The notes beneath the pieces are model-generated. The model saw nothing but the letters and a program-made list of their open reading frames with translations, was not told the DNA's origin and made no database searches. This document shows, piece after piece, positions 5,614-18,324 of a stretch of 32,414 nucleotides of DNA. Made by a program: the position numbers and the translations under genes. The stretch comes from Bacteriovorax stolpii (lineage in GTDB: Bacteria; Bdellovibrionota; Bacteriovoracia; Bacteriovoracales; Bacteriovoracaceae): positions 1 through 32,414 of the forward strand of contig CAMDQH010000030.1 in assembly GCA_945905815.1 (NCBI GenBank), written 5' to 3'. The stretch's first letter is position 1. Each line of letters begins with the position of its first letter.

Positions 5614-6678
5614 CTATTTTACCGCATCCACAATCATAAATTTGGTATTTGTGGCAATTACTTTGCTATTCGCAAAGATTTTTTTCAGTTTTACCTGATA
5701 GGCCAGATGAGAATTACCAATGACTCTGATTACCCCCCCGTTCTTCAGCGCCTCTTTTGCATCATGAAACATCTGCCAAGCTATAAAATCCCCAATCGTG
5801 TTGCCTTGATGAAAAGGTGGATTGCAGATAACGAGATCCAGCGAATGCTTTTCCTGATCTTCATAACAATTCGTCCAATGAAATTCGGCGTTGTCCGTAA
5901 AAAACTTAGAATAATTTGCCTTGGCACTTAGAATCGCCATTTGAGATTCATCACTAAAAACAATCTTGGCATAGGGATTAAGCTTCTTAATCATAATTCC
6001 CACGATTCCATTTGCGCAGCCAAGGTCAAGAATCGTTTTATAATCGCCTTTGGGCAAATTCTCAAGCAGAAATCTTGTTCCAATGTCCAGTTTCTCTCGG
6101 CTAAAAAGATTGGAATGATTAAGTAGCTCTTCTTCCAAAAGATCAAACTTCACTTTTCGTGGGTAAGGAGAATCAATTTTTTCTTTTTCAAAATGCGAGA
6201 AAATCAGTCGTGCTTTTTTTTGTGCCAAACTAGTGGTGGTTTTTCCAATGTATTTGTTGAGTAGATCAAAGCTTGCAGGGGCCAAATGCTTTATCATGGC
6301 CCCGCAAATGATTTGAGAAGTGGAATTAAGATGTTGAGTCAGGTGACAGAGAATATCTTCAAAGAAAGACATATTCTTAGGTAACTGAATTAAGACATAG
6401 TCATAAATGCCACTAAGATTTTTAAAATTATTAATCGGAATAATTTTATCAACGCTATTTATGATAATCGCTTTATAGCTAACGTAGGAGTCTGTGTAAC
6501 TGGTGATATCAAAGTTTTTCAAACCACAGCTTAGGGCACCGAACTGGTCATTGATAATTAAGATTCTTTTTTCAGACAGCGTAAGTGCACTCATGTGCTG
6601 CAAAAGTAATTCGTCAGCACTGTCCCACGCCTGCAATAAATCATTTTTACGGTAAGGATAACGTTTTAAGTCTTCCAT
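5614..6678 (-). CDS. rlmG: 23S rRNA (guanine-N2)-methyltransferase RlmG
   Basis: A 354-residue SAM-dependent methyltransferase of the RsmC/RlmG type, expected to methylate a guanine in the 23S rRNA peptidyl-transferase region. The N-terminal half is the degenerate duplicated domain typical of this group. The C-terminal half is catalytic: FSREKLDIGTRFLLENLP leads into the SAM motif LDLGCANGIVG, and CNPPFHQG is the NPP[FY] catalytic tetrad for exocyclic amines. The C-terminus (GNSHLAYQVKLKKIFANSKV, then KFMIVDAVK) resembles RlmG more than RsmC. Its start overlaps the end of the exonuclease gene by 13 bases, so the two are probably co-transcribed. Confidence 0.85.
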   Translation of the reverse strand: MEDLKRYPYRKNDLLQAWDSADELLLQHMSALTLSEKRILIINDQFGALSCGLKNFDITSYTDSYVSYKAIIINSVDKIIPINNFKNLSGIYDYVLIQLPKNMSFFEDILCHLTQHLNSTSQIICGAMIKHLAPASFDLLNKYIGKTTTSLAQKKARLIFSHFEKEKIDSPYPRKVKFDLLEEELLNHSNLFSREKLDIGTRFLLENLPKGDYKTILDLGCANGIVGIMIKKLNPYAKIVFSDESQMAILSAKANYSKFFTDNAEFHWTNCYEDQEKHSLDLVICNPPFHQGNTIGDFIAWQMFHDAKEALKNGGVIRVIGNSHLAYQVKLKKIFANSKVIATNTKFMIVDAVK

Positions 6679-7268
6679 TGTTTATTCACATCTTTTTTCG
6701 GCGTACTCGCGAGGAGCCTCATGACATCGTAAGTAACTTCTTTCATTCCAAGCAACTGACTGATATCTGCTTTCATGCATAGCCAAAGTCTGGCAGTCAT
6801 TTCTGCATCGGCCAACGCTCGGTGAAAAACCCCATTAGTTTCGATATTTTTGTATTTAACCAGCGTCCCTAGCTTATGGTTGGGTGCCTTCTGATAAACT
6901 CTCCTGGCGACTAAAAGCGAGCAGGCCATGGGTTGTGGGGCCTTGAGCCCAACCAAGTCCAATTCCGCATCGAGAAATTTTTTATCAAATGAGGCATTGT
7001 GGGCCACCAAAGGTGTATTCCCAATAAAATGATGGAGCTCTTTCATCACTTTTGCATTATTTGGGGCCTTCGAAATCATTTGATTGGTGATGCCAGTTAA
7101 ATCTTGAATAAATGATGGAATGGAAACGCCAGGGTTCATTAAACTTTGATAGCGATCAGTCATGCGACCATTCTCAACTAACACTGCCGCCACTTCAGTT
7201 GTTCTTGCTCCCACATTTGGTGACAGACCTGTTGTCTCAAAATCCAGAACAATAAAAGAATTAAGCAT
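6666..7268 (-). CDS. DnaQ-like 3'-5' exonuclease (DEDDh family)
   Basis: A 200-residue exonuclease of the polymerase III epsilon/RNase T type. ExoI is FIVLDFETTGLSP (Asp9, Glu11 as metal ligands), ExoII is VAHNASFDKKFL, and ExoIII is HRALADAEMTARL, where His and Asp complete DEDDh. It lacks the polymerase-binding C-terminus expected of a full epsilon subunit, so a repair or RNA-trimming nuclease is as likely. ATG 7268 is preferred. The frame stays open to a TTG at 7283, but that codon sits in the T-tract of the upstream terminator. No Shine-Dalgarno precedes either start. A TACAAA box five bases before the ATG could give a leaderless message. Confidence 0.82.
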   Translation of the reverse strand: MLNSFIVLDFETTGLSPNVGARTTEVAAVLVENGRMTDRYQSLMNPGVSIPSFIQDLTGITNQMISKAPNNAKVMKELHHFIGNTPLVAHNASFDKKFLDAELDLVGLKAPQPMACSLLVARRVYQKAPNHKLGTLVKYKNIETNGVFHRALADAEMTARLWLCMKADISQLLGMKEVTYDVMRLLASTPKKDVNKQWKT

Positions 7269-9356: not shown

Positions 9357-9821
9357 ATGACCAGTATTTCACATCCAAACAACCACATGACATTTCATTT
9401 AGCAGAAACCAAGGCAAAGCTTTGGGCCGTTCCAGTTGGAAGATTTTTCTTCTCCCTCATCTTCATTATGTCGGGGGTAAATCACTTTAGCGCCGGAACT
9501 ATCGCATACGCTGCCGAGCAGGGTGTCCCCATGGCAAATATATTGGTGCCTCTCTCAGGATTGCTAGCTCTTTTTGGTGGTATTAGTATTCTCTTGGGTT
9601 ATTTTGCTCGATTCGGAGCCATGCTGCTTATTTTATTTTTAGTCCCTGTCACTTTGACCATGCATAATTTCTGGGACATCTCTGACCCGGCCATCCACCA
9701 AATGCAGATGATTCAGTTTATGAAAAATTTGACGATTTTGGGTGGTGTGATCCTAATTGCTTTTTATGGTGCCGGACCTAAAAGTATCGATCTCAAACGA
9801 CCAAGGAGAAATACTCCATGA
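9357..9821 (+). CDS. DoxX-family membrane protein
   Basis: A 154-residue integral membrane protein with four hydrophobic helices (about 28-46, 60-80, 86-104, 122-138). The DoxX signature GRFFFSLIFIMSGVNHF opens the first helix, and MHNFWDISD follows the third. DoxX-like proteins are linked to quinone-dependent oxidase subunits or redox and membrane stress; the actual reaction here is unknown. The ATG at 9357 has a strong AAGGAGG Shine-Dalgarno. The frame is open to 9318, but that start has no comparable site. The stop overlaps the start of a small secreted-protein gene. An unusual ATG-TAA minimal ORF with its own GGAGG lies 20 bases upstream. Confidence 0.85.
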   Translation: MTSISHPNNHMTFHLAETKAKLWAVPVGRFFFSLIFIMSGVNHFSAGTIAYAAEQGVPMANILVPLSGLLALFGGISILLGYFARFGAMLLILFLVPVTLTMHNFWDISDPAIHQMQMIQFMKNLTILGGVILIAFYGAGPKSIDLKRPRRNTP

Positions 9822-10093
9822 ATACTTTCTTTTTAGTCTTTTTCGGTCTTTTACCTGCGATTGCCATAGCAGTTCCAGAGCCATCAGTTTATCCGAATTC
9901 TGGACCAACAGATGCTATTAGAAATGAAAATACGGGGATCGGTTCATTTTCGAATCCCGGTCCAGAGGATGTAGACTCAAAAAAATACCGCGAAACGATG
10001 GATTTGACCCCAAAGACAAAAGATGATCAATTCGTGCAAGGTCCTTACGATAAAAATGGGAACTACCGGTACATCCCAGAAATTCGTAAGTAA
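9818..10093 (+). CDS. Small secreted protein of unknown function
   Basis: The 91-residue product has a Sec signal peptide (hydrophobic over about residues 3-18, with cleavage near AIAVP). The mature segment of about 72 residues is rich in Pro, Gly, Asn and Asp (NSGPTDAIRNENTGIG, SNPGPEDVDSKKY, DKNGNYRYIPEIRK). It contains no cysteine and looks largely unstructured. It starts inside the DoxX stop (ATGA), so the two are translationally coupled and may be made together at the envelope. It ends four bases before the convergent rhlE-like gene. I do not recognise a family. Confidence 0.7.
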   Translation: MNTFFLVFFGLLPAIAIAVPEPSVYPNSGPTDAIRNENTGIGSFSNPGPEDVDSKKYRETMDLTPKTKDDQFVQGPYDKNGNYRYIPEIRK

Positions 10094-15073: not shown

Positions 15074-15394
15074 ATGTACAAAAAAATATCTGCTGAGCAA
15101 TTGGCAAAATTCATGCAACCTTTGGGACATTTTATGCGAGTTCAGATAATTGAAGAACTCAGATTGGGTGAACTCGATGTGACAACTTTGCAAAAGAGAA
15201 TAGGTTTGCCCCAGTCTACCGTTTCACAACACTTGGCAATTCTTAAAGCTAATAACTTAATAAAAGAGCGAAAAGAAGGGCGCAGGGTTTTGTATCATTT
15301 AGTTACAATCGAATTAGCTGAATGGTTATTAGTTGGAACTGACCTAATTAATAAAAGTCAGCAAATCTATGGAGAAACTAATTCAATAATTTAA
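15074..15394 (+). CDS. ArsR-family winged-helix transcriptional regulator
   Basis: A 106-residue winged-helix protein. PLGHFMRVQIIEELRLGELDV is the typical ArsR opening, followed by the recognition helix region LPQSTVSQHLAILKANNLI and the wing KERKEGRRVLYHLV. The protein contains no cysteine, so a classic thiolate metal sensor is unlikely; non-metal ArsR members that sense redox state or small molecules exist. AAGAGG lies seven bases before the ATG. Its last 17 bases overlap the convergent flagellin gene. Its most likely target is its own two-gene unit. Confidence 0.82.
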   Translation: MYKKISAEQLAKFMQPLGHFMRVQIIEELRLGELDVTTLQKRIGLPQSTVSQHLAILKANNLIKERKEGRRVLYHLVTIELAEWLLVGTDLINKSQQIYGETNSII

Positions 15395-16211
15395 GAGCAG
15401 ATTTTCCAGTCATATTTGCTTGGGCCAATACTGAGGTATTGGCTTCTCCCAGGATTGAATTGCGCGCCTTAGTCGCTGACTCTTCTGCATAATCGACATC
15501 TCGAATTCGATTGTTAGCAGCGCTCATGTTCTCATGATAGGTTCCTAAATTATTTGAACTTGAGATCAAACGGTTCTGAAGAGAGCCAACTGTTGCCCTT
15601 TGGGCCGAAAGCATATTTATAGCATGATCAATTTTACCAAGACCTTCTTGAGCATTTATTTTAGAACTTATGCTTCCAGACGAGATACCTAACGCCTGAG
15701 TTCCAGCATTAAGATCTTTTGAACTATAGCTAACTCTATCATCGGAACTGTTATCACCAACACCAACATGAAAGTCGAGCTCAGGGCCTGATCCGTTCAA
15801 TAATTTTTTTCCATTGAATTCAGTTGTCTGTGAGATCCGGTCAAGTTCCAGCTTGAGTTGTTCATATTCTATATTTGATTTATCTCGATCAGAATCCGTT
15901 AAAGTATCAGAGGCGGCCTGGATGGAAAGTTCACGCATACGAGTAAGTAGATTTGATGATTCTGATAATCCGCCTTCAGCAACCTGTACAAGAGAAATAC
16001 CATCGTTCGCATTTCTATTTGCTTGTTTTGAAGAACGAATTTCAGCTTTAAGTTTTTCAGATATCGCGAGTCCAGCAGCATCGTCAGCTGCTTTATTAAT
16101 TCTTTGTCCTGAACTAAGTTTTGAATAATTATCAGCAGTCTCTTGCGTCACTTTAGTAAGTGATTTCTGCGATTGGATAGAGGGGATATTTGTATTAATA
16201 CGAAGGCCCAT
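15378..16211 (-). CDS. fliC: Flagellin
   Basis: A 277-residue flagellin that polymerises into the filament. The N-terminal D0/D1 region is classic: MGLRINTNIPSIQSQKSL, then SSGQRINKAADDAAGLAIS and ANDGISLVQVAEGGL. The C-terminal D1/D0 region has AQRATVGSLQNRLISSSNNL and ends in ANTSVLAQANMTGKSALKLLN. The middle variable domain is very short, giving a length close to Bdellovibrio flagellins. The start at 16211 is fixed by the family N-terminus, although the frame is open to 16319. No Shine-Dalgarno precedes it, and I found no convincing sigma-28 promoter, which is odd for an abundant protein. Only one flagellin gene is in the window. Confidence 0.95.
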   Translation of the reverse strand: MGLRINTNIPSIQSQKSLTKVTQETADNYSKLSSGQRINKAADDAAGLAISEKLKAEIRSSKQANRNANDGISLVQVAEGGLSESSNLLTRMRELSIQAASDTLTDSDRDKSNIEYEQLKLELDRISQTTEFNGKKLLNGSGPELDFHVGVGDNSSDDRVSYSSKDLNAGTQALGISSGSISSKINAQEGLGKIDHAINMLSAQRATVGSLQNRLISSSNNLGTYHENMSAANNRIRDVDYAEESATKARNSILGEANTSVLAQANMTGKSALKLLN

Positions 16212-16323
16212 AGTGGTCGTTTCGGAAGAAAAAGGGCAAAAGATAACTGGGATTCCTTGGCAATTCCGACTACTCCGCTCAAGAATGTTATACATTGGTT
16301 TTAAAACGATAATGGGCACAACT

Positions 16324-16552: not shown

Positions 16553-17281
16553 TCATGAAAGTTTCTCATAAAGAAAATCCGACATGGATGCCTCGCCTCC
16601 ATCTAATGCGTAGAAAGCGGAAATACATACGTCAGCATAAACTGATTTTAAAGAAAGCGAAAGATTCGGGTCTCGACGAAAAACACTACAGTGCTTATTT
16701 GATCCTGTTACAAAATAGTTGCGGCAATTGGCAGGGCGATGCTCCCATACATTACAAGCGCCATTATCTCGATTCAAGAAGACACATTTTCCTTCTTCTT
16801 CACTAAGCTCTTGAGTCCAGTTATCGGTAGTAAGATGATGCTGTTTTTTTAACTGCTCAAGGTTGATTTTCGCTGACGTTTTAAGAAGAAGACTAACTTC
16901 CGACTTGGAGACGGTTACAAGCTGAGAACAGCAATCGGAACAACCTTTAGAGCAAAGAATATTGTTAGAAGCATCGCTCCCATTGAAAAGATTTTTAGTG
17001 ATAATCTCATTAACATCATCATGAAATATTTTGACGCGACTTTCAGAGTTCTCAACTTTTAAATATTTTTTGTAAAAGAAAACGACTCCATCAAGAAGAC
17101 TCTTTAAATGGTTGAAAAAATCGTCTTCAGGAAGTCTCTCAAACGCATCAGCGATGTAATCACGAAGAACAAAATTAATGGTAATTTTGTGCTCAAGTAA
17201 AAATTGAATACTCGCATTTTCAGGAAATTTTTGTTTAAGGCCTTTGAGTAGATGAACGACGCTCTCTTTGTGATTGATGAT
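16553..17281 (-). CDS. YkgJ-family cysteine-cluster protein without a canonical start codon
   Basis: A frame of about 242 codons encodes a YkgJ/CxxCxxCC protein, a family thought to bind zinc or an iron-sulfur cluster. The cluster CSKGCSDCC lies around the middle, followed by KCVFLNRDNGACNVWEHRP, ANCRNYFV and a C-terminal cysteine-containing segment. The N-terminal half is helical (EHKITINFVLRDYIADAFER and following). No ATG, GTG or TTG occurs in frame before the cluster. The only upstream ATG (17305) is in frame but is cut off by a TAA at 17290-17288 after five codons. AAGGA at 17289-17285 would suit an ATC at 17281 or 17278. It is either a rare AUC start, a stop read through, or a fresh pseudogene. 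Confidence 0.6.
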   Translation of the reverse strand: MINHKESVVHLLKGLKQKFPENASIQFLLEHKITINFVLRDYIADAFERLPEDDFFNHLKSLLDGVVFFYKKYLKVENSESRVKIFHDDVNEIITKNLFNGSDASNNILCSKGCSDCCSQLVTVSKSEVSLLLKTSAKINLEQLKKQHHLTTDNWTQELSEEEGKCVFLNRDNGACNVWEHRPANCRNYFVTGSNKHCSVFRRDPNLSLSLKSVYADVCISAFYALDGGEASMSDFLYEKLS

Positions 17282-17306
17282 TAATCCTTAAATCCTTGTG
17301 ACCATC

Positions 17307-17326
17307 CTTAAATTCTAGGATTTTTC
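17307..17326. repeat. CTAG-centred quasi-palindrome, copy 1
   Basis: CTTAAATTCTAGGATTTTTC at 17307-17326 contains AAATTCTAGGATTT, a near-palindrome centred on CTAG. It lies just upstream of the YkgJ reading frame. Copy 2 (25326-25345) matches at 18 of 20 positions. CTAG is generally rare in bacterial genomes, so the repeated palindrome may be a protein-binding site. Confidence 0.45.
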
Positions 17327-17472: not shown

Positions 17473-18324
17473 ATGAAAATACTTACTTTTTTACTCTTGT
17501 TCTCATTACCAGTCCTGGCCCAGGATTTTACTTTTAACAAAGAAAAGGGCGAAGCTGTACCAAACTATGTATGCCAGCTCAAAGTCATGAGAGGTAAGGT
17601 TTTCCAGGTGACTGGTGGGGTGAAAAAAGAAGTGAAGGTGGGAACCCGCTTTTACCAAAATGACACACTCATTACTCAAGACAAATCATTTGCTCAACTC
17701 TTGATTGCTGATGACTCTGTGATGAGTATTGGTGCTAATTCTGAAATCAATTTTGCTGAATTTAAGTTTATTGATAAAACAGACAGACAAATTGTTTATT
17801 CCTTCATTAAAGGTCAGATCCGAGCTCTGATAAAAAACAAGGCAAAAGAAGGTGATATTATTTTCAAAACAAAACTGGCCATCATGGGCGTCAGAGGTAC
17901 TGAACTATTTATTAATCATCAGACAATAAAGAAGATTGAAGTTTCAGAATTTGCTTTAACTGAAGGTAATGTTCAGGTGGCTGATGATAAGAATCAAAAA
18001 CATGAGGTAAACAAGTCTGATCGCCTCATTATCGTTCAAGACTCAGAGACGAAGAAAAGTGCCATCGAAATGAATACGCTTTCAAACGAAGAATTAAAAA
18101 TATTAAGTAAAGAAGATGAGTTGTTGCATCTTTTTAACCCGGCCTCACTTATAATGACGTCGTCACTATTGCCCTATTTTCATGCAAATGAAGCTCCAGC
18201 TGTCGTTGGGTCAAACAATGAATCTGCTGCGTCTGAACCGACTGAGAAAGAAGTTCAGAATAAAGACTGGCGCGGCAATCTTAAGAAACTAAATAAAAAG
18301 CTCAAAGACTATCAAGAAAAATAA
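17473..18324 (+). CDS. Secreted FecR-domain protein
   Basis: A 283-residue exported protein with a short Sec signal peptide (MKILTFLLLFSLPVLAQ, cleavage near residue 16). The FecR domain follows, with VGTRFYQNDTLITQDKSFAQLLIADDSVMSIGANSEI in several short pieces and the typical IMGVRGTELFI about two-thirds along. Free-standing FecR domains fold as a beta structure, often at the outer membrane or as envelope scaffolds, not as the iron-citrate regulator. The C-terminal 60 residues are polar and charged (KDWRGNLKKLNKKLKDYQEK), possibly a short coiled coil. It directly abuts a convergent 25-residue membrane-peptide gene. Confidence 0.82.
   Translation: MKILTFLLLFSLPVLAQDFTFNKEKGEAVPNYVCQLKVMRGKVFQVTGGVKKEVKVGTRFYQNDTLITQDKSFAQLLIADDSVMSIGANSEINFAEFKFIDKTDRQIVYSFIKGQIRALIKNKAKEGDIIFKTKLAIMGVRGTELFINHQTIKKIEVSEFALTEGNVQVADDKNQKHEVNKSDRLIIVQDSETKKSAIEMNTLSNEELKILSKEDELLHLFNPASLIMTSSLLPYFHANEAPAVVGSNNESAASEPTEKEVQNKDWRGNLKKLNKKLKDYQEK

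Follow-up and report, generated by a model that had tools for sequence, protein, structure and literature searches.

Recurrent non-NUG start codons in PF03692 genes of one bacterial family, and a probable AUC start in a relative from Bacteriovorax stolpii

The AUU or AUA start codon of infC, the gene for initiation factor IF3, underlies the autoregulation of that gene by IF3. As a class, non-NUG starts are very rare, and an ancestral reconstruction covering 61,358 AUG starts reports a single switch from AUG to AUU and two from AUG to CUG (PMC5622118). In Staphylococcus aureus, cvfC1 (AUU) and ccpN (AUA) are described as having conserved non-canonical starts with extended Shine-Dalgarno (SD) motifs, mapped by retapamulin profiling and reporters; in poor medium they are said to reach about 10% of the expression from AUG, and in rich medium ccpN as much as 30% (PMC13009471). 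E. coli pcnB, with its AUU start, is a chromosomal gene limited by a weak start (work cited in PMC13009471). The genes considered here, which encode proteins of the PF03692 (YkgJ-type) family, appear to share features with each of these systems. As in infC, a non-NUG codon lies behind a strong SD, and the same design is found in the same genomes; unlike infC, they encode a different protein and alternate, from one genus to another, between NUG and non-NUG starts, and their link to IF3 is one that we only infer. The placement of an AUH codon behind a strong SD recalls cvfC1 and ccpN, although the PF03692 case is known from sequence alone, belongs to another phylum and another gene, and allows four codons to interchange. 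The likeness to pcnB would lie in the limiting effect of a weak start, the proteins being unrelated. Among the titles and abstract openings listed, none spoke of unusual start codons for the PF03692 gene family or for these bacteria.

It is useful to consider first how infC itself begins in these genera. Inspected by eye, the gene seems to start with ATT (ATT or ATC in two cases) behind an SD in 20 of 20 genomes, 14 of which have no upstream in-frame NUG. Among further infC loci, of which 22 of the 30 fetched were examined, 17 lack a NUG before the conserved part and two have an ATG nearby. Across two sets of infC loci (L171–L190 and L141–L170), an apparent ATT or ATA start behind a GGAGGTG-type SD was seen by eye in 42 of 50. 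It is thus very probable that at least one gene of these organisms begins with AUU or AUA.

The DNA analysed here, which we call the window, is a stretch of 32,414 nucleotides from Bacteriovorax stolpii. Its features of interest, in window coordinates, are as follows.

15378 to 16319, minus strand: flagellin gene (Pfam PF00669/PF00700), the downstream neighbour, given for context.
16553 to 17287, minus strand: PF03692 (YkgJ-type) open frame of 244 codons.
16553 to 17278, minus strand: proposed coding sequence for a PF03692 YkgJ-type protein, from AUC to TAA, 241 codons plus the stop.
16712 to 16954, minus strand: PF03692 CxxCxxCC domain, by Pfam match.
16928 to 16954, minus strand: cysteine cluster CSKGCSDCC, in a protein with 8 of 8 family cysteines kept.
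17276 to 17278, minus strand: proposed AUC start, the fourth codon of the open frame, lying 6 bases past AAGGA.
17279 to 17281, minus strand: alternative AUC start, codon 3, 3 bases past AAGGA.
17284 to 17289, 17292 to 17297 and 17304 to 17309, minus strand: three AAGGAT copies, spanning 17284 to 17309 (26 bases).
17285 to 17289, minus strand: SD-like AAGGA overlapping an in-frame TAA, with a duplex of -5.9 kcal/mol to the assumed anti-SD.
17288 to 17305, minus strand: upstream in-frame mini-ORF ATG GTC ACA AGG ATT TAA, with the ATG at 17305 to 17303 and the TAA at 17290 to 17288.
17473 to 18324, plus strand: gene for a FecR-domain protein (Pfam PF04773), the upstream divergent neighbour, given for context.

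An earlier note on this DNA had described a YkgJ-type gene with no canonical start, and the frame bears this out. The first ATG, GTG or TTG inside it is a TTG at codon 171 counting from 1 (zero-based 170), and the next in-frame ATG lies about 64 codons beyond, at zero-based codon 234. The sole upstream in-frame ATG, at 17305, is closed off by a TAA five codons on, with AAGGA lying over that stop, as the earlier note had also stated. The three AAGGAT copies that it pointed out are present as well and form a local cluster on one strand within 26 bases; in the window as a whole the motif occurs 30 times against 27.6 expected and is thus no commoner than expected.

Given this arrangement, one could imagine that the mini-ORF is translated and that ribosomes restart at the AUC just past its TAA, coupled through the AAGGA that overlaps the stop 6 bases ahead of that codon. 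The geometry suits such a restart, yet the mini-ORF ATG has no usable SD (dG +0.2) and is probably not a functional start, and no such mini-ORF is shared by the odd-start relatives described below in the stretches examined, so that we regard the restart as improbable. On the same evidence, the bypass of the stop that the earlier note had entertained is not needed. Direct initiation at AUC, placed by AAGGA at 6 bases, a spacing suited to initiation, is the reading that we prefer. The layout at 17276 to 17278 is that of TAAGGATTAGTT-ATT in one relative (G139), and a spacing as short as the 3 bases that the alternative AUC at 17279 to 17281 would have occurs in just 1 of 22 non-NUG family members. 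Taken alone, the AUC site is modest evidence for the window gene, because an equally good or better SD match precedes 5.1% of the 2101 ATA, ATC and ATT triplets on the minus strand; its SD match is also the second weakest among 23 (the 22 non-NUG relatives plus the window gene).

The gene does not look broken, as judged from its frame, its cysteines and its N-terminal codons. The earlier note's account of a frame intact over about 240 codons with a CxxxCxxCC cluster is upheld by the 244 open codons and by a match of the protein to PF03692 with an E value of 1.7e-9 and 38.7 bits, above the Pfam gathering score of 23. Identity to 33 aligned relatives is 24–34%. The window protein retains 15 of the 21 residues that never vary among these 33, all 8 cysteines being among those retained; a proline counted in the 15 belongs to the uncertain N-terminal part and may match by chance of alignment. 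With 24 window ORFs as the training set, a codon score is positive for this frame in all 12-codon blocks between codons 7 and 114 and gives mixed values after that, and the N-terminal codons score 5.4, which is middling within the range of the training-ORF starts (-5.0 to 20.9, n=24). An AlphaFold model begun at the AUC has a mean pLDDT of 87.7, with 67 over the first ten residues and 81–88 over residues 11–40, a mostly helical part that is largely an extension absent from the relatives. Together, the coding score and the modelled N-terminus suggest that translation begins near codons 3–6, where the two AUC codons lie 3 and 6 bases past AAGGA. They also bear on the proposal that translation starts at a non-NUG codon further in, for example the ATT at codon 37, which is near the aligned family N-terminus and whose ATT AAT TTT resembles family start codons; the SD there is weak (-1.9), the coding score upstream is positive and the modelled helices upstream are confident, and such a start seems the least credible of the readings weighed here. 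No solved structure resembling the protein was found by sequence (best E value 0.96), and none convincingly by fold; this lack of a structural match is no evidence of a new fold.

These observations also bear on whether the gene has recently been inactivated, as the earlier note had allowed, that is, whether it is a young pseudogene whose start has just been lost and whose frame has not yet decayed. It lacks a canonical start, 6 of the 21 invariant family residues are changed, no close ortholog is present in 368 genomes of the phylum, and no copy stands beside FecR at any of 12 other same-genus loci, over about 1.5 kb on each side, so that it is perhaps dispensable. Weighing more heavily, to our minds, are the 244 open codons, the retention of every family cysteine at 24–34% identity, a coding score resembling that of other genes, an AAGGA suitably spaced from the AUC and starts of the same type in intact relatives, and we consider recent inactivation unlikely. 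In our assessment, an intact gene translated from a non-canonical start, most likely the AUC at 17278–17276 placed by AAGGA, is the probable explanation; the ATC start, one of the options raised in the earlier note, is thus favoured.

The related genes give the main result. At an E value of 1e-15 or better, a profile built from 24 relatives matched 67 of the 129 same-family genomes. From the high-scoring group 64 loci were fetched, of which 61 were usable; G109 and G107 run into a contig end, the frame of G008 is broken (L123 near 9600–9900), and these three were left out. The homologous start position normally lies three residues ahead of P-A-I-A or its equivalent; in eight rows, where the profile match set in a little late, by some bases or codons, it was placed by hand. 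At this position the 61 genes carry ATG in 31 cases, GTG in 4, TTG in 4 and a non-NUG codon in 22, made up of ATT (8), ATA (7), ATC (6) and CTG (1) and spread over 10 of 21 genera. Whole genera have a non-NUG start (5 of 5 in g3, 5 of 5 in g13 and 3 of 3 in g8), and the carriers include Bacteriovorax sp. BSW11_IV, Bacteriovorax sp. DB6_IX and Halobacteriovorax marinus 36_234_T64, three records whose titles make no mention of a metagenome assembly. In Bacteriovorax sp. DB6_IX, the frame of the PF03692 gene breaks within about 30 codons of the ATA (L116 near 6640–6740). On a tree of 60 family proteins, the start must have switched between NUG and non-NUG at least seven times, and the codon type must have changed at least 19 times. 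NUG codons that could serve as starts occur near the N-termini of seven divergent PF03692 paralogs, one of which belongs to the window's own genome, and of one distant homolog, a point against the AUC reading.

An SD core of four or five bases is present in all 22 non-NUG relatives, ending 3–7 bases, mostly 5–6, before the odd codon. In 12 of the 22, the stretch from the preceding stop to the odd codon contains no in-frame NUG at all; the other 10 have one or two there, some of which overlap or precede the SD core. Plausible alternative upstream starts include an ATG 9 codons up in G132 and one 14 codons up in G053. The next downstream NUG is 5 to 101 codons away in 21 of the 22, and in the broken one a stop comes first. 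Within-genus differences in 16 of these relatives number 99, 83 and 177 at codon positions one, two and three over codons 2–19, as against 202, 217 and 209, with no phase, over the 54 bases upstream of the odd codon (compared without gaps). As the third-position excess appears only past the odd codon, coding would begin at about that codon and not at the next NUG. The model of the H. marinus protein begun at AUA has a pLDDT of 91 over residues 1–10 and 98 over the next ten. By computation on these sequences, then, the related gene shows a recurrent non-NUG start at one homologous position behind a strong SD. The recurrence also speaks to an assembly or sequencing error that conceals a normal start in the window. 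The genome is a 141-contig assembly, seen once, and the region contains near-repeats; against this, the trait is found in independent genomes, including those of Bacteriovorax sp. BSW11_IV and H. marinus 36_234_T64, which are not titled metagenome assemblies, and we judge such an error very unlikely.

SD strength differs with the type of start. Calculated against the usual bacterial anti-SD, which may not match the 16S genes of these organisms, the median duplex energy is -10.2 kcal/mol in the non-NUG set (the 22 plus the window gene), as compared with -6.5 in the 31 ATG relatives (Mann-Whitney p 6e-5). The median is -1.7 in the 8 GTG or TTG relatives, which argues that a strong SD is tied to non-NUG starts and not to any weak start. 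As a control, other conserved ORFs of these loci, grouped in 25 clusters, were scored, a row being flagged when its consensus start had no NUG within eight codons. This rule flagged 10 of 420 control rows and 20 of 63 family rows, the latter including cut and broken ones (Fisher p 1.2e-12). Two clusters (26 rows, 13 flagged) had been dropped from the control as likely shadow or antisense ORFs, judged by eye from their translations; if both are retained, the flagged control rows rise to 23 of 446, to be set beside the same 20 of 63 family rows (Fisher p 4e-9). The rows are related, and these p values overstate independence and serve as a guide only. A first control rule, which flagged 39 of 533 rows including 13 family rows, proved too crude, as alignments overran true starts; a second picked out 12 of 62 family rows as against 10 of 471 control rows. 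Among the ten flagged controls, four have an NTG after all (L084, L107 c5, L109 and L119), two are split frames, one lies at a contig start and one (L069) is ambiguous, which leaves two or three that may truly begin with a non-NUG codon, among them the L108 and L110 genes described next.

Some of the genes at these loci merit mention in their own right. An ABC-F gene at about 10353 on the plus strand of L108 (genome G051) seems to start with CTG (CAGGAG CTATTT CTG), its relatives having ATG, and it faces an ATA-started PF03692 gene. A regulator-like ORF on the minus strand of L110 (17223–17871, in reverse-complement coordinates) has ATT ATC behind AGGAG, with ATG in its L113 relative, and is perhaps another non-NUG start. 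In an outer membrane efflux protein cluster (PF02321 in L069), the minus-strand frames of L107 and L116, from two genomes of one genus, are split by a stop that precedes a well-conserved stretch.

It is also important to consider how closely the window gene belongs with these relatives. A protein scan of the contigs of genomes confirmed no close relatives, and the best matches across 368 phylum genomes are 31–34% identical (E value 1e-18 or better); in searches of 98 and of the 368 genomes, identity was 27–34% over most matches, with short stretches up to 37%. The window protein matches a profile of the PAIA-type group with an E value of 2.2e-29, on a long branch, and an AU test did not reject its grouping with same-genus members (p 0.499), so that the gene may be the fast-evolving ortholog of its genus. 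It lacks the x-x-x-PAIA N-terminal motif and has about 33 extra N-terminal residues, and its neighbours are flagellin and FecR in place of the methyltransferase, ArsC-family and DTW order, which is likewise missing at 12 same-genus group loci and varies between genera. At 12 of 12 other same-genus loci, with about 1.5 kb examined on each side, no copy of the window gene stands beside FecR. The FecR-domain gene at 17473 to 18324 has no recognisable SD (dG +2.1). Given the long branch, the missing PAIA and the different neighbourhood, the start of the family cannot be mapped onto the window gene codon for codon, and the family result supports its AUC start by analogy, without proving it. The flagellin next door invites comparison with the flagellin lysine methylase FliB, which has a cysteine-rich metal-binding motif that its authors compared with PF03692 (PMC8598068). 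However, the motif is CX4CX3CC in FliB (PMC8598068) and CX3CX2CC in the window protein; the NCBIfam FliB model NF038110 does not match the window protein and gives the H. marinus relative 17 bits against a cut-off of 85.

If ribosomes do initiate at this AUC, the initiator tRNA would pair only with its A and U, which would make initiation inefficient and sensitive to the strictness of the ribosome and IF3 against non-NUG starts, and a good SD would compensate in part. Such a start would keep the window protein scarce, and the level of IF3 may tune it as it does for infC. The same may hold for the AUH starts of the family, which, as in infC, pcnB, cvfC1 and ccpN, would lower initiation and make it sensitive to IF3 and growth state, the strong SD preserving some expression. 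The observations are best fitted by a start that is weak by design and that a strong SD rescues in part, which would add a new gene family to a known kind of start.

The genes around the family members offer a hint as to role. Within 4 kb of the 64 family genes, some of whose loci are shortened by contig ends, the commonest neighbours are ArsC-family genes (39), a divergent ABC-F gene (29), DTW-domain genes (28) and, in four genera, a methyltransferase gene (24). A recurrent order (L064:9727–12201 and matching loci) runs from the PF03692 gene through the methyltransferase and ArsC-family genes to the DTW-domain gene, with the divergent ABC-F gene upstream, and parts of it are found in 11 or so genera. 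DTW proteins modify tRNA, and this set of neighbours hints that the family protein is linked to translation or tRNA modification. One can imagine, as a rather doubtful extension, that the PF03692 gene and these neighbours form a regulon of start-codon discrimination modelled on infC, whose expression would read initiation stringency or the level of IF3 and in which the AUH start and strong SD would be kept as the sensor and not simply be tolerated.

Gene finders limited to ATG, GTG and TTG would truncate or drop genes of this type, and would assign wrong N-termini to such proteins. With about a third of its members in one bacterial family started by AUU, AUA, AUC or CUG, at least seven switches and a stronger SD accompanying the odd codons, the PF03692 gene provides a natural experiment on the purpose of such starts.
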